Of a stretch of DNA of 64,000 nt, positions 2,675 to 8,767 are shown in pieces. How positions within the stretch are numbered: position 1 is the stretch's first letter; each line of letters starts with the position of its first letter. The position numbers and the translations under genes were made by a program. The notes below the pieces were generated by a model. It did not search any database. It was not told where the DNA came from and was given only the letters and a program-made list of their open reading frames with translations. Source of the stretch: Paenibacillus sp. 453mf (GTDB lineage: Bacteria > Bacillota > Bacilli > Paenibacillales > Paenibacillaceae); NCBI RefSeq assembly GCF_900116105.1, contig NZ_FPAC01000001.1, positions 2,173,135 to 2,237,134 of the forward strand, read 5' to 3'.

Positions 2675-3940
2675 TTAAAGGACATTCCAGCTTGTCCCGC
2701 CATCCATTGTCTGCATTAATATCGATTTTTTCTCACTTGCATTCTCAAGCAGCACCCATCCCACTTTAGGGCTTACGAACTGCAGCTTGACAACCTCTGG
2801 ATAATCTACAAGCTTCTCTGATAAAACTTCACTTACAGGCAATACGTCCCAATCCTCACCTTGATTTATCGTATGATAAACATAAGACCCCTGCAGTGCC
2901 CAGCCTTCAGACTCACTGAGAAAAGTAGGATACAAATCCTTGTTCACACCGCTCTGTGAAGGCAGGTTAAACTGGATATGCTCCCAAACGGAGCCTCCAT
3001 CTGTCGTAAACAAACCGCTGTACTGTACACCGCTGCCTTCCGCACAGCCTAGTGGAAGATACATCTGCTGATGATCTGTATTCAAACTCTCTATTTCGCC
3101 TAGAGAATAAGAAGAACAGGATTCGTACAAAGCTGATGACCTGTTGAAATAGGACTCGTTAATAGACCAGGCCTTCCCTGCATTCTTGGTTAAATAGATC
3201 TTTGGAGCACCAAGCTCAAGTACGGATACGACACCACGATCACCACTCATGAACTGCATACCCTCGGCATATCCGCGATGAGGTATTGCGTGATCCGTTT
3301 GTTGAAGCGGTGAGCTAGTCATCACTTCAGACCAATTCATCCCGCCATCCAGCGTCGAGAATATTTTTTTCTCCTCTTTGCCGGTACCCGCATTGTCACT
3401 TGTCATTAAGAACCCTTCTTTGGCCGAGGCAAAATGAAGCGCGGTTACCTTCTGAGTTTCCTCGAGCGAAGATATCATCCAGCTCTCACCGCCGTCACTC
3501 GTGCGTAGTACCACATTGTCGGTTCCGTCAGTCCCGGAACGCACAATCCAGCCATTCATGCCGTCAAGGAAAAATATGTCTTCTCCATAAACCGGATTTG
3601 TCGCAAATTTTACATTAGATGATGGAGAAATGTTAGTCCATGTCTCCCCATTGTCACGGGTATAGTATAAACGCAGTTCGCTTCTCGTTACTCCCCAAGC
3701 TAGACCGCCATAACCATGGATTAATTGAAAGTCCGTTAATCGTGTCTGAATTTGATACTTGTTCACTTCAGCTACTTCATAATTGCTCGGTTCAATAAGC
3801 GTAATCGTCTGGCCATCCTCCAGCTGCTCTTCCTTTACAACTACAGGCTGAGCCTCCTCGGGTTCCGAAGATGTACAAGCCGTAAGCGCCAGAGTGAGCA
3901 TGAGTATACATGCTAGAGCCCGCTTTGTCGTTTCTCGCAT
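2675..3940 (-). CDS. BNR/Asp-box repeat lipoprotein (Ycf48-like beta propeller)
   Basis: The 421-residue product begins with a lipoprotein signal: basic residues, a hydrophobic core and the lipobox Leu-Thr-Ala-Cys with Cys22. At least seven Asp-box motifs of the S/T-x-D-x-G-x-x-W type can be read (RDNGETW, SDGGESW, LDGGMNW, KNAGKAW, TDGGSVW, NQGEDW, MDGGTSW), spaced 45-70 residues apart, as in sialidase and photosystem II assembly factor Ycf48-like beta propellers. It is therefore likely a propeller tethered on the outer face of the membrane. No sialidase catalytic Arg triad can be assigned, so enzymatic activity is not claimed. Ligand and partner are unknown. Confidence 0.85.
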   Translation of the reverse strand: MRETTKRALACILMLTLALTACTSSEPEEAQPVVVKEEQLEDGQTITLIEPSNYEVAEVNKYQIQTRLTDFQLIHGYGGLAWGVTRSELRLYYTRDNGETWTNISPSSNVKFATNPVYGEDIFFLDGMNGWIVRSGTDGTDNVVLRTSDGGESWMISSLEETQKVTALHFASAKEGFLMTSDNAGTGKEEKKIFSTLDGGMNWSEVMTSSPLQQTDHAIPHRGYAEGMQFMSGDRGVVSVLELGAPKIYLTKNAGKAWSINESYFNRSSALYESCSSYSLGEIESLNTDHQQMYLPLGCAEGSGVQYSGLFTTDGGSVWEHIQFNLPSQSGVNKDLYPTFLSESEGWALQGSYVYHTINQGEDWDVLPVSEVLSEKLVDYPEVVKLQFVSPKVGWVLLENASEKKSILMQTMDGGTSWNVL

Positions 3941-4112: not shown

Positions 4113-5498
4113 CTACTTCCTGGTTTGCTTGTCTCCAAGCTCACTGTGACGGTATCCATAGAAGAAATAAATACATAGACCGATGAGAATCCACACGGCA
4201 AATCCACCCCAAGTTGAGCCGTCCAGCTGAAGCATCAGCAGCACACAGAATGCTGCACTCAGCAAAGGAAGAAACGGCACCCATGGCACAGAAAATCCTC
4301 GTTTAAGATCTGGCCTGGACTTGCGCAGACCAATAACACCTAATGATACGACGGCAAAAGCGAACAGTGTTCCAATAATTGTCAAGCTGGCAAGCTGCTC
4401 CAGCGGCAGCAATCCACACAGCAGTGCAATAATGATACCAACCATCCATGTACTGCGGACAGGGGTGTGTCTTTTCTCATCTACTTTGGATAAGAACTTG
4501 GGCAGCAGTCCATCCCGGGAAATCGCGAACAAGAGCCTGGTCTGACTAAACAAAAGAACGAGCAGCACCGTTGTAATTCCGACGATCGCTCCAATCGAAA
4601 TAAGCCCTGCCACAAAGTCTTGTCCTACAAAGCGGAGTGCAAAAGCTACAGGATCTGCAACCCCAAGATTCGTAAAAGGTACCATCCCCGTCAGGACAAC
4701 GGCGACAAGTGAATACATAATCATACATACAATAAGAGATCCAATGATGCCAATGGGGAGATTACGCTGCGGGTTTTTGACTTCTTCTGCTGCTGTGGCC
4801 ACCGCATCGAATCCAATATAGGCAAAAAACACAACTGCCGCTCCGCTCATCACCCCTGTAAAACCAAATGGCATGTATGGAGTCCAATTGTCGGGCTTAA
4901 CATAAAATGCACCGACCAGAATGAAAATGATGATGACTGCAATTTTGACGAAAACCATCATTGCATTAAATCTTGCCGTTTCTCTCGCTCCCTGGGTGAG
5001 CAATAAACAAATAGCCAATATGATGAGAACGGCCGGCAAATCTATGATTTGTCCCTGCGACAAATTAAAAGCACCAGATATAGCGGTAGGAAGATGTATA
5101 CCGAAGCCTTCCAGCAGCCCTTGTACATACGCAGACCAACCGCTTGCCACCGATGCGGCAGCAACACCATACTCTAATACCAGTGTCCAGCCCATTAACC
5201 ATCCGATCACTTCACCGAATGCAGCATAGCTGTAAGCATAGGCACTTCCGGATACTGTAACCGTGGAAGCCAGTTCAGAATAACACAACGCTGCCAGAAT
5301 ACAGACGATGGCCGCAATAACGAAGGATATCATTAGTGCGGGTCCAGCATGTTCTGCAGCTGCTTGTCCGGTAATTACAAAAATACCGGTACCAATAATT
5401 GCACCGACCCCAAGCGATATGAGATCCAGCGCCCCAAGCGTCTTCTTGAGGCCTGTTCCCTTGTTCAGGTCAAAATGCTTCTTACGAAATAAATCCAT
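4113..5498 (-). CDS. APC superfamily amino acid permease (cationic amino acid transporter type)
   Basis: The product has about 461 residues and 12 or more hydrophobic segments. The N-terminal L-G-x-x-x-L-I-S-L-G-V-G-A-I-I-G-T-G-I-F stretch is the hallmark first helix of APC permeases, and the length and C-terminal PWVPFLPLLS segment resemble the CAT subfamily (B. subtilis YhdG/YfnA). It probably imports amino acids by cation symport; specificity is not readable. An upstream in-frame ATG at 5552 exists, but the ATG at 5498 has an AGGAG site at good spacing and family-like N-terminus, so it was chosen. The gene is transcribed away from the FMN riboswitch unit and shares a 296-bp divergent upstream region with it. 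Confidence 0.92.
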   Translation of the reverse strand: MDLFRKKHFDLNKGTGLKKTLGALDLISLGVGAIIGTGIFVITGQAAAEHAGPALMISFVIAAIVCILAALCYSELASTVTVSGSAYAYSYAAFGEVIGWLMGWTLVLEYGVAAASVASGWSAYVQGLLEGFGIHLPTAISGAFNLSQGQIIDLPAVLIILAICLLLTQGARETARFNAMMVFVKIAVIIIFILVGAFYVKPDNWTPYMPFGFTGVMSGAAVVFFAYIGFDAVATAAEEVKNPQRNLPIGIIGSLIVCMIMYSLVAVVLTGMVPFTNLGVADPVAFALRFVGQDFVAGLISIGAIVGITTVLLVLLFSQTRLLFAISRDGLLPKFLSKVDEKRHTPVRSTWMVGIIIALLCGLLPLEQLASLTIIGTLFAFAVVSLGVIGLRKSRPDLKRGFSVPWVPFLPLLSAAFCVLLMLQLDGSTWGGFAVWILIGLCIYFFYGYRHSELGDKQTRK

Positions 5499-5793
5499 AA
5501 ACTCACTCCTAGATGAATGTTGCAACGCTTTAGTGCAATTAAGCACAAACAATTATTATGTTAAAGTTAGTATGGGTTGTCAACTTTAATCATCGAATTA
5601 GAATCATTTGGCTCATGCCTTGCTAACAGATTGCCCTAGCTAGAATTTTACCCAGAAACAAGAAAAAAGTTGGTTGGTATTACCTGCGAAAAAAAGTATT
5701 GCTACGATAGCGCTTACTATATTATTATGTCTGAGTAGGTTACAACTAATTATCTGCTTACTATTTTATACTATCTTAACAAATGAATATTGG

Positions 5794-5944
5794 ATCTTCG
5801 GGGTAGGGTGAAAATCCCAATCGGCGGTGACGTTCATGCAAATGAAGAACGAAGCCCGCGACTCGCGTGCTCAGCATTCCTTGAGCACGCGACTGACTTG
5901 GTGTAATTCCAAGGCCGACGGTTATAGTCCGGATGAGAGAAGAT
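5794..5944 (+). promoter_or_regulatory. FMN riboswitch (RFN element)
   Basis: The stretch carries the conserved RFN landmarks in order: the P1 5' strand ATCTTC (5794-5799), AGGGTGAAAATCCC, CGGCGGTGA, AGCCCGCGA, a variable hairpin with CGCGTGCTCA and TGAGCACGCG arms, TTGGTGTAATTCCAA, GCCGACGG, AGTCCGGATGAGAG and the closing P1 strand GAAGAT (5939-5944). It is followed 48 bp later by an intrinsic terminator, then the DMT transporter gene. FMN binding would be expected to favour termination and switch the transporter off when flavin is plentiful. A TATACT hexamer at 5767-5772 may be the -10 of its promoter. Confidence 0.95.
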
Positions 5945-5991
5945 CACTGATTACATGCTGTTGTTATAATGAGACGCATGTTTATTTGATC

Positions 5992-6042
5992 ACCCCTGTT
6001 GAAAGTGCATGGTTATATGTGCACAATCACTGGGGTTTTTTT
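5992..6042 (+). terminator. Riboswitch expression-platform terminator
   Basis: ACCCC (5992-5996) pairs with GGGGT (6032-6036), with further pairing of GTGCA-type arms inside, and is followed by seven T residues. It lies between the RFN aptamer and the ribosome site of the transporter, the normal place for a transcription-terminating FMN switch. Confidence 0.8.
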
Positions 6043-6094
6043 GACAATCTGAAGATACCATATTCAAATTCTCACTTACGAAGGAGTTTGGATT

Positions 6095-7054
6095 ATGGAA
6101 CACACGAACAAAAAAGCATCACCTGCGGCGGGCTCAACCGGCTTCTGGCTCGTCGCACTCGGAGCAGCACTATGGGGTATTGGACCCCTGTTCCGTATTC
6201 ATCTATTGGACTACATGACCTCGACGCAAGTGGTGCTGATTGAGCACCTCCTTGTCTGTCTCGTTGCTGTACCGATTCTATGGATAAACCGATCTGAATT
6301 AAAAAGTCTGCGTTTGAAGCATTTATTCGCACTGCTTGTCATATCCTGGGGCGGTTCTGCACTAGCTACCATTATTTTTACGATGGCCTTGTCGAGCGGT
6401 GATCTAAATGCGGTTGTGCTGCTGCAAAAAATGCAGCCGATCTTTGCCATACTGCTCGCAAAGCTGATTCTTAAGGAGACGCTGCCCAAACGATTCGGCT
6501 TCTTCTTTACCATCGCAATCCTGGGAACGTATTTGCTTACCTTCGGATTTACAGTCCCTTTTGGATCGAATAATGAATGGATTAAGGTAGGAAGCCTTCT
6601 ATCTCTACTCGCTGCAGCATTATGGGGTGGATCTACGGTGATGGGACGCTTGCTTCTTGGCCAGGCGCAGTACAAGACGGTGACCTCTCTTCGATATGTA
6701 CTCGCGCTGCCGTTGCTCCTCGTCATGACCTGGTTAGAAGGAGCAGCGATGAATCTTCCCCAGGCAGGAGCTGCACTGACGAGTATCGGAGTTAACTTGC
6801 TGGCACAAGCTTTGCTGCCCGGGCTGCTGAGTCTGCTATTGTACTATAAAGGATTGTCTTCTACCAAAGCATCGATGGCTACCCTTGCCGAGCTCAGCTT
6901 CCCGATGATGGGTGTGCTCGTGAACTGGATCGCTTTTGGACAGTTGGTCACTCCTGCTCAGCTCATTGGTTTCGTGCTTATTTGGACATCTTTGTTTATA
7001 TTCGCGCGTCAGCAGCAACAGAGTAGCGAGCAGCTGGTCTCACACACGACATGA
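6095..7054 (+). CDS. DMT/EamA family transporter, probable riboflavin uptake (ImpX/RibN-like)
   Basis: A 319-residue protein with about ten hydrophobic helices arranged as two EamA halves (roughly residues 17-145 and 165-305), the usual DMT length. Each half has the family's glycine-rich first helix (A-L-W-G-I-G, A-L-W-G-G-S) and a final helix containing E and P residues (first half I-L-K-E-T, second half A-E-L-S-F-P). The ATG has an AAGGAG site. The FMN riboswitch and terminator directly upstream are the main functional clue: DMT proteins under RFN control (ImpX of Fusobacterium and Desulfitobacterium) and RibN of proteobacteria are riboflavin transporters. The assignment is therefore inference from regulation plus family; EamA proteins as a group export or import many metabolites. 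No other riboflavin gene is in the window. Confidence 0.85.
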   Translation: MEHTNKKASPAAGSTGFWLVALGAALWGIGPLFRIHLLDYMTSTQVVLIEHLLVCLVAVPILWINRSELKSLRLKHLFALLVISWGGSALATIIFTMALSSGDLNAVVLLQKMQPIFAILLAKLILKETLPKRFGFFFTIAILGTYLLTFGFTVPFGSNNEWIKVGSLLSLLAAALWGGSTVMGRLLLGQAQYKTVTSLRYVLALPLLLVMTWLEGAAMNLPQAGAALTSIGVNLLAQALLPGLLSLLLYYKGLSSTKASMATLAELSFPMMGVLVNWIAFGQLVTPAQLIGFVLIWTSLFIFARQQQQSSEQLVSHTT

Positions 7055-7155
7055 GAAACGATGGAATCAATTTTAGGTGGAAGTTTCACCGATGAGGATA
7101 TAACGAGTTGGAAAGAGGTTAAAGCTTGACTATATAATTAGAGTCATATTAATGT

Positions 7156-7185
7156 GTCGCTGTCCATTTGGACGGCGATTTTTTT
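7156..7185 (+). terminator. Intrinsic terminator after the DMT transporter
   Basis: TCGCTGTCC and GGACGGCGA form a 9-bp stem (one G-U pair) around ATTT, followed by seven T residues. Confidence 0.85.
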
Positions 7186-7273
7186 ATATTTGCAGGTTTT
7201 CACTTTCCCTCCTACCAGACGGAATTATGCGTTATGATAGAGAGAACGATTAGAAAGGATGATCAATAAGCCT

Positions 7274-8767
7274 ATGACTTCTTTTCCTTATACATCTTAT
7301 GACGCAGTAGGACTCGCACAGCTGATCAGAGATAAACAAATCTCTCCAGTAGAGCTTGTATCTGCTGCCATTGAAAAAATCAATCAGTTGAATCCTAAGC
7401 TTAATGCCGTGGTCCGTACTCGCTACGAAGCTGCACTGCAAGAAGCGCGCGAGGTAAATACAATGGCCCAGCCTTTTGCAGGTGTTCCCATCTTGTTAAA
7501 AGACATTTCACAAGCGATCGCCGGCGAGCCTCTTACATCCGGTTCCAAATTATTTGCTGAACACAAGCCACTCTACGATTCTCATTACGTAGCCAAGCTT
7601 CGGAGAGCCGGGTTTATTCCGATTGGACACACGAACACCCCGGAATTTGGTCTCAAGAATATTACCGAGCCTAGACTACACGGCCCTTCAAGAAACCCTT
7701 GGAATACAGACCACTCTCCCGGCGGCTCCAGTGGAGGATCGGCTTCAGCCGTTGCCTCCGGTATGATACCTGTCGCCGGAGCAAGTGATGGCGGCGGTTC
7801 GATTCGTATCCCCGCTTCCTTCAGCGGGCTGTTCGGATTAAAGCCAACACGTGGACGGACTCCCGTCGGACCGGGAGTTGGTCGGCAGTGGCAGGGTGCT
7901 TCCATTGATTTTGCCTTATCAAGAACGGTGCGGGACAGTGCGGCACTCCTCGATGTACTGCAGGTGCTTCAGAACGAAGCTGCCTTCCAGGTACCGCTTT
8001 ACCCGGGAAGATACTTGGAAGACATGTACTTAACGATTGAACGGAAATACCGAATTGCCTATACGATGGATTCTCCAGTAGGCACGCCTGTCAGTGAGGA
8101 TGCCAAGGAGGCAGTGCTCAAGGTCGTCAAATACTTGGAATCCGAAGGACATATCGTTGAAGAAAAACAAAGTCCGGTAAACGGCGTTCATCTCATGGAG
8201 AATTATTACATGATGAACAGCGGTGAGATGGCCGCCATGGTACTGAAGATGGAGCGCGGGCTTGGAAGAGCCATTACTGCTGAAGACATTGAAATCGAAG
8301 GCTGGGTGCTCCTCGAGGCAGGAAGAAAATTATCAGCAGCTGAATTTGTACATAGTCTTGCAGAGTGGGACGTTGCTGCAGCACAAATGGCCGCCATTTT
8401 TGATCGATATGACTTCTATATTACACCTACAAATGCTTATCCGGCTCCGCAGATTGGTGAACTGACGCCTGGGCCAGAGAAGATTCAGCAGCTGCTTAGG
8501 GTTAGTGAGTTATCTAAAGACAAACAGCAAGAGCTCATCTATGACATGTTCGAGCCTAGCTTAAAGTATACGCCGTTTACACAGCTTGCGAATTTGACAG
8601 GTACACCTGCGATGAGTCTCCCTCTTCATCTTAGTAAGTCCGGGCTGCCCATGGGCGTGCAATTCATGTCTGCTAAAGGAAGAGAGCATGAGATGCTCCA
8701 GCTGGCGCACCTGCTTGAGAATACAGATTTGTGGATTACTCCATTCACATCCGGAGGTGAGCATTAA
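7274..8767 (+). CDS. Amidase signature (AS) family amidase
   Basis: A 497-residue enzyme with the full amidase-signature core: the catalytic Lys in G-V-P-I-L-L-K-D (residue about 76), the glycine/serine-rich block S-P-G-G-S-S-G-G-S-A with the cis-Ser (about 152), and the nucleophile Ser in S-D-G-G-G-S-I-R-I-P-A-S (about 176). It hydrolyses an amide; as GatB/C partners are absent it is a stand-alone amidase rather than GatA, with unknown substrate. An ATG at 7259 overlaps the AAAGGA ribosome site itself, so the ATG at 7274 was chosen. It is followed after 6 bp by the phosphopantetheinyl transferase, so the two are probably co-transcribed. Confidence 0.92.
   Translation: MTSFPYTSYDAVGLAQLIRDKQISPVELVSAAIEKINQLNPKLNAVVRTRYEAALQEAREVNTMAQPFAGVPILLKDISQAIAGEPLTSGSKLFAEHKPLYDSHYVAKLRRAGFIPIGHTNTPEFGLKNITEPRLHGPSRNPWNTDHSPGGSSGGSASAVASGMIPVAGASDGGGSIRIPASFSGLFGLKPTRGRTPVGPGVGRQWQGASIDFALSRTVRDSAALLDVLQVLQNEAAFQVPLYPGRYLEDMYLTIERKYRIAYTMDSPVGTPVSEDAKEAVLKVVKYLESEGHIVEEKQSPVNGVHLMENYYMMNSGEMAAMVLKMERGLGRAITAEDIEIEGWVLLEAGRKLSAAEFVHSLAEWDVAAAQMAAIFDRYDFYITPTNAYPAPQIGELTPGPEKIQQLLRVSELSKDKQQELIYDMFEPSLKYTPFTQLANLTGTPAMSLPLHLSKSGLPMGVQFMSAKGREHEMLQLAHLLENTDLWITPFTSGGEH

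Follow-up and report, generated by a model that had tools for sequence, protein, structure and literature searches.

The window, the whole stretch of 64,000 nucleotides of Paenibacillus sp. 453mf DNA that was analysed, carries a one-gene unit that, judging from its sequence, very probably serves FMN-repressed uptake of riboflavin by an ImpX-type DMT carrier. The locus is one of the ImpX-type members that are widespread in the order, not a new kind of transporter. It likely represents a vitamin B2 uptake route for much of one Bacillota order (the gene occurred in 225 of 296 sampled genomes, across 21 of 48 genera, at E 1e-30 or better), in contrast to RibU under an FMN riboswitch, which is the usual route in the phylum according to the accessible part of PMC3766115. 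The features of the locus are as follows.

5790..5948, + strand: full-length FMN riboswitch aptamer (RFN element, RF00050; cmscan, 108.1 bits, E 3.3e-24).
5799..5804, + strand: 5' aptamer segment with a GGGG core, predicted empty-state partner of the terminator 5' arm (RNA folding of growing transcripts).
5942..5946, + strand: 3' aptamer segment, predicted empty-state partner of 5987-5991 (RNA folding of growing transcripts).
5987..5998, + strand: predicted switching strand, which pairs either with the aptamer as an antiterminator or downstream as the terminator 5' arm (RNA folding of growing transcripts).
5992..6042, + strand: leader terminator, stem 5992-6036 with seven T at 6036-6042 (folding and sequence).
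6081..6086, + strand: ribosome binding site AAGGAG (sequence).
6095..7054, + strand: gene for an ImpX-type EamA/DMT transporter, 319 aa, ATG start (PF00892, DMT fold, identity to ImpX, clade).
7156..7179, + strand: terminator 3' of the transporter gene, a stem of 10 pairs with a T run after it (consensus scan).

The aptamer covered positions 1-138 of the 138 of the RF00050 model, exceeded its gathering score of 66.2 bits; nothing else in the window passed an Rfam gathering score. The leader (5985-6045) folded at -19.2 kcal/mol (z -2.48), a stability equalled in 4 of 200 shuffles. A stricter terminator consensus scan, which requires loops of 3-8, did not list the leader hairpin 5992-6036; its only entry was the terminator at 7156-7179 (shuffles averaged 1.4). 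This second terminator lies between the transporter gene and the next gene downstream, an amidase starting at 7259, and the transporter unit looks monocistronic. The upstream neighbour is a BcaP-like permease on the opposite strand; with this permease and the amidase as neighbours, no rib gene adjoins the transporter gene. A complete RFN aptamer with a terminator and a single EamA gene, away from any rib gene, had been described in the first-pass annotation and was confirmed here; the start given there, 5794, falls four bases inside the aptamer. Five promoters were predicted at 5600-7300, compared with 2.6 (sd 1.9) in shuffles, and none stands out from chance. The 319-aa protein matched PF00892 (EamA) in two stretches at 98.6 bits (cut-off 28.2) and did not match PF12822, the ECF S component of RibU; its best NCBIfam match was far below cut-off (50.7 vs 230.2). 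The permease gene itself (4113-5552, - strand) is near the branched-chain amino acid transporter BcaP, at 675.4 bits just under the cut-off of 690.

Folding of growing transcripts predicted a switch in the leader. In transcripts ending at 6000-6030, bases 5991-5997 paired upstream (mean P 0.79-0.83), and in the longer transcripts, with ends at 6036 and at 6045, they paired downstream (P 0.66-0.68). Until the 3' arm of the terminator appears, the partners of the strand 5987-5998 are the aptamer bases 5799-5804 and 5942-5946; because bound FMN would hold these same bases, the leader is predicted to be an off switch acting by termination, a layout that agrees with the shut-off by FMN proposed in the first-pass annotation. 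When FMN is scarce, the 5' and 3' closing strands of the empty aptamer would pair with 5987-5998, the terminator would be blocked and the transporter gene transcribed; when FMN is bound, the aptamer would keep its strands, 5992-6036 would close and transcription would end before the gene. The product, a carrier of the ImpX type with a predicted DMT fold, would bring in riboflavin for conversion to FMN in the cell. Among 81 leaders surveyed, 79 could be parsed (all but L136 and L151), and a terminator was found in 58 of these, compared with 24 of 158 shuffled leaders; the other 21 lacked one by the rule used. Of the 58 leaders with a terminator, 30 showed pairing of its arm to the ends of the aptamer with P >=0.5 and 28 did not, and the value for the window's own leader in this survey was 0.45. 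The predicted antiterminator is not general across leaders.

Linkage of riboswitch and gene was followed across the genus, the order and the phylum. All 75 genomes of the genus had an FMN riboswitch (149 copies in total) and 74 had an orthologue of the gene, each with a same-strand riboswitch 139-236 nt upstream (74/74; two genes are broken, and only the first piece of each enters this count), whereas none of 27 weaker EamA matches in the genus had one. The genome without an orthologue, G042, had a single riboswitch only. Downstream of 32 riboswitch loci (L001, L002, L005-L034) lay the transporter gene in 29 cases and ribD in the remaining 3. The wider set was picked by hand and comprised 26 gene-bearing genomes from outside the genus, at least one for each further gene-bearing genus, with 20 of the 71 match-less genomes and G042 as 21 controls without the gene; stricter filters were used for the riboswitch search in this set. 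The gene was linked to a riboswitch in 23 of the 26 (157-263 nt), and each of these 23 genomes had exactly two FMN riboswitches. The three unlinked genes (in G102, G106 and G141) were weaker matches (1e-67 to 1e-77) in genomes with one riboswitch each, and the 21 controls had one riboswitch in 20 cases and none in 1, so that each of the 24 genomes lacking a linked gene had at most one. The riboswitch-gene link is not chance: the notion that the two are unrelated neighbours, which deserves next to no credence, is contradicted by linkage in 74/74 genus genomes and 23/26 others, and the tested genomes without a linked gene have no second riboswitch.

Of 398 genomes sampled from the phylum, 12 had a match at E 1e-20, and five of these 12 lie beyond the order; a riboswitch stood upstream at four of the five loci (L125-L128) and not at the fifth (L129). 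The window protein and that of L125 were 45% identical. A scan of named genomes gave 21 loci, mostly from Desulfosporosinus and Alicyclobacillus, and a riboswitch was found at 18 of the 20 tested (L150, with too little upstream sequence, was left out); the exceptions were Desulfosporosinus lacus (L136) and an Actinomycetes MAG row (L149). In D. lacus (L136 1900-2560) the gene is kept and the upstream FMN riboswitch is absent, unlike in its relatives; none was found there even with permissive settings. Two genus genomes carry the gene in two pieces, G036 (C6:373147-374042) and G054 (C1:4788197-4789098), where it is either broken or misread. Regulon databases may already include some members of the riboswitch-linked set.

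The relation to ImpX was traced through a Fusobacterium gene. When the window protein was searched against 72,556 plasmid records, only two places reached E 1e-5 or better: one codes for a Thermomicrobium DMT protein and the other lies in a Fusobacterium vincentii record of 2.1 Mb. This record (L151, NZ_CP084075.1, 2,108,235 bases) is labelled plasmid pSB055A, is chromosome-sized, carries impX and is probably a mislabelled chromosome. The F. vincentii gene has an FMN riboswitch directly upstream (118.2 bits). The impX gene of F. nucleatum was cloned with published primers (PMC4418817, available text), and these match the flanks of the F. vincentii gene at 2525-2544 and 3899-3919, pointing towards one another and each with 3 mismatches; equal matches occurred in 0 of 200 shuffles of the locus, and shuffled primers reached at best 5-6 mismatches there. 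An exact-match scan of the genome contigs with the reverse primer returned nothing, the F. vincentii place having 3 mismatches. With the riboswitch upstream and primer matches in both flanks, the F. vincentii gene is taken as ImpX in the sense of the available text of PMC4418817, where ImpX is described as allowing an E. coli ribB mutant, a riboflavin auxotroph, to grow at low riboflavin.

The window protein and F. vincentii ImpX share about 33-34% identity (34% over 290 columns). When F. vincentii ImpX was searched against the own genome at E 0.001, the window gene was the only match (3.2e-33), and ImpX was the single place that the window protein matched in the F. vincentii record; the two are thus bidirectional best hits, with a record that is possibly not a whole genome and with F. 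vincentii standing in for F. nucleatum ATCC 23726. With ImpX as the query against 38 genomes, the riboswitch-linked gene ranked first in all 31 tested genomes holding one (8e-34 to 4e-21), and the next best other match was 6e-10, apart from three sister genes without the RFN element. As these sisters (G102, G106 and G141) match F. vincentii ImpX as well as the linked genes do (1e-28 to 1e-32) and the identity is low, the substrate is not settled by homology alone. In the available text of PMC4418817 the cut-off first applied to ImpX asks for more than 38% identity along 80% or more of the F. nucleatum prototype and was adjusted for some families; this is a search cut-off and not a property of the protein, and because the window protein misses it, with 34% to F. 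vincentii ImpX, it is called ImpX-type and not ImpX. The same cut-off may explain why this lineage was missed in that 2015 survey, whose authors state in the available text that ImpX is possibly underestimated and in whose available text the word Paenibacillus does not occur. A literature search, which excluded most subscription journals and all supplements, found no paper holding both ImpX and Paenibacillus. In their accessible parts, PMC7266159 mentions the FMN riboswitch, EamA and riboflavin, its EamA passages concerning ykkC RNAs, and PMC12452182 names Paenibacillus for T-boxes.

A phylogeny with F. vincentii ImpX and other EamA proteins placed the family in one wider clade with F. vincentii ImpX, the position of the latter within it being unsure. 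The first tree used 15 EamA paralogues together with four DMT proteins of E. coli for its outgroup; the clade (100/99) had 33 rows in it, of which 25 were riboswitch-linked Bacillota rows, seven had no riboswitch and one was F. vincentii ImpX. The second tree (46 rows), from which the E. coli rows and the paralogues L160, L168, L170 and L171 were left out and to which two relatives were added, held 35 rows in one clade, again at 100/99. The riboswitch-linked Bacillota rows together with D. lacus formed a clade in both trees (100/99 and 98/97). F. vincentii ImpX sat on a long branch outside all others, a placement of which the program warns, and the relatives without an RFN element fell between it and the riboswitch-linked clade. 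Forcing all riboswitch-linked rows, with D. lacus and F. vincentii, into a single clade was 6.3 log units worse and was not rejected (p-AU 0.133); given this value and the unsure placement of F. vincentii, the riboswitch link may or may not have a single origin. H51, Q111, R200, Y251 and E266, present in both the window protein and F. vincentii ImpX, were common to all 33 family rows, and H51, Q111 and E266 occurred in none of the 19 outgroup rows.

An AlphaFold model of the window protein (pLDDT 87.7, pTM 0.85) gave 33 matches in the PDB with E up to 0.001, all of which, judged largely by their titles, are carriers of the DMT superfamily. These included LicB, titled a choline importer (7paf_A; TM 0.72/0.82, 17% identity in the structural alignment), and 5i20_E, presumably E. 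coli YddG (TM 0.72/0.79, 16% identity); both share the fold and differ in substrate.

The Paenibacillus genome itself has exactly two FMN riboswitches. The second, about 258 kb from the locus, precedes ribD-ribE-ribBA-ribH (names read from the translations), and with this operon present the cell should be able to make riboflavin. Since the synthesis operon stands under an FMN riboswitch of its own, the carrier would save synthesis and not replace it. ImpX of F. nucleatum, which is also predicted in Desulfitobacterium hafniense, is likewise an EamA/DMT protein of about 310-320 aa with the riboswitch directly upstream, commonly as a single-gene unit in an organism with the riboflavin pathway; F. 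vincentii ImpX differs in its 34% identity and its separate long branch.

In Bacillota, RibU likewise takes up riboflavin and is controlled by an FMN riboswitch (PMC4418817, available text); it differs in being an ECF S component, another protein family. As far as PF12822 detects it, a RibU-like S component is absent from the own genome, where the only match lies inside a 554-aa protein that was read as a LytS-like kinase. The absence is claimed for this genome only, because PF12822 matched in 36 of 40 tested genomes, several of the matches lying in frames about as long as RibU. RibN of alpha- and gamma-proteobacteria is likewise a riboflavin importer annotated to the DMT family (PMC10012899, available part), and in alpha-proteobacteria it likewise occurs with an FMN riboswitch (PMC4418817, available text). 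Six alpha-proteobacterial riboswitch loci from plasmid records were followed in search of RibN; three of them led into ribB or a ribB-like gene, two into a lumazine synthase gene and one into a gene for a hypothetical protein (three of the five assigned names were read by eye). The riboswitch locus of Ilyobacter is a rib operon.

These results bear on the earlier reading of the gene as a DMT-type flavin transporter used in place of RibU. Its first part gains support from homology, the mutual best match and riboswitch linkage, all of which tie the protein to ImpX, and its second part is in keeping with the PF12822 search of the own genome. The gene is not a further exception to RibU, however, since its product fits best under ImpX, which the first-pass annotation had already named among the exceptions. 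The arrangement is also widespread in the order.

Several relatives without a riboswitch stand beside genes of F420 metabolism. In Thermomicrobium roseum (L152 1395-4608; only the plasmid record was searched) cofD, cofC, the DMT gene and a nitroreductase lie in one row, CofD and CofC over cut-off and the nitroreductase, nearest to the FbiB C-terminal domain, under it. The order in G680 (L182 8701-15775) is DMT, a PucR-type regulator (read by eye), CofC, isochorismatase, NpdG and CofD, with CofC and NpdG over cut-off and CofD under. In G795 (L186 2998-8193) the DMT gene adjoins CofC and NpdG, both over cut-off, with CofD under; in G789 (L187 3895-12480) CofC is over cut-off and CofD under, and NpdG was looked for at this locus and not found. 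CofC was thus over cut-off at all four F420-linked loci, and no FMN riboswitch was found in these stretches. G680, G795 and G789 were all of the genomes with the gene at E 1e-25 among 121 sampled from the class; none of the three (completeness 97, 90 and 93%) had a CofG match at E 0.001, compared with a match in 11 of 14 control genomes, over cut-off in 3. These relatives are candidate transporters of deazaflavin (F0). Their association with F420 genes speaks for a flavin-like substrate across the clade as a whole, and the wider clade may move deazaflavins too. Simple F0 import or dependence is doubtful in Thermomicrobium, since T. roseum is reported as an abundant F420 producer (PMC8498797, available text); in the available text of this 2021 review the sole transporter passage concerns a putative ABC exporter, and the words 'uptake' and 'salvage' are absent. 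As a testable proposal for deazaflavin transport, the F420 clusters are the step most worth following.

The same clusters bear on whether the carrier of the window might import another flavin relative, for instance F0 or some other deazaflavin, or a product of flavin breakdown, with FMN as the signal. The four clustered relatives and the missing CofG in all three searchable genomes would fit such a substrate, but the riboswitch-linked Bacillota rows form their clade apart from the F420-linked rows in both trees, the own genome has no CofG over cut-off (two weaker matches), and Fusobacterium ImpX supports growth on riboflavin (PMC4418817, available text); a substrate other than riboflavin is accordingly considered unlikely. 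Export of flavins or of some other metabolite, in the manner of YddG or RhtA and with the riboswitch answering FMN for a different reason, appears more improbable still. DMT exporters do have the fold of the window protein, and the E. coli DMT carriers rhtA, yddG and eamA are annotated as exporters. Against this, there would be little point in FMN shutting off a flavin exporter, the near fold match LicB bears the title of an importer, and the window protein shares 13-20% identity with four E. coli DMT proteins vs 33% with F. vincentii ImpX. Riboflavin import under FMN repression is hence preferred for the locus.

For the whole clade, a tentative division into three branches can be proposed, for which the odds are judged somewhat short of even: the riboswitch-linked members would import riboflavin, the F420-linked members, in bacteria with the late genes cofC, cofD and npdG and without CofG, would import F0, the precursor of the deazaflavin cofactor, and a branch in the window's order linked to MCP and DICT genes would move a flavin-like compound for sensing. 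An F420 link was sought for other RFN-less relatives and rejected: with CofC, CofD and NpdG as queries, blastp (E 1e-4) was negative across the 17-18 kb around each of the RFN-less sisters of the window's order and across the 5.9 kb of the Actinomycetes row L149. In these sisters (L179 6207-9116, L180 6599-9338 and L181 6927-9654) a gene with an MCP signalling domain precedes the DMT gene in 3/3 and a DICT-domain gene also precedes it, in two by Pfam and in the third as a similar ORF recognised by eye, which suggests a sensory role for this sister group.
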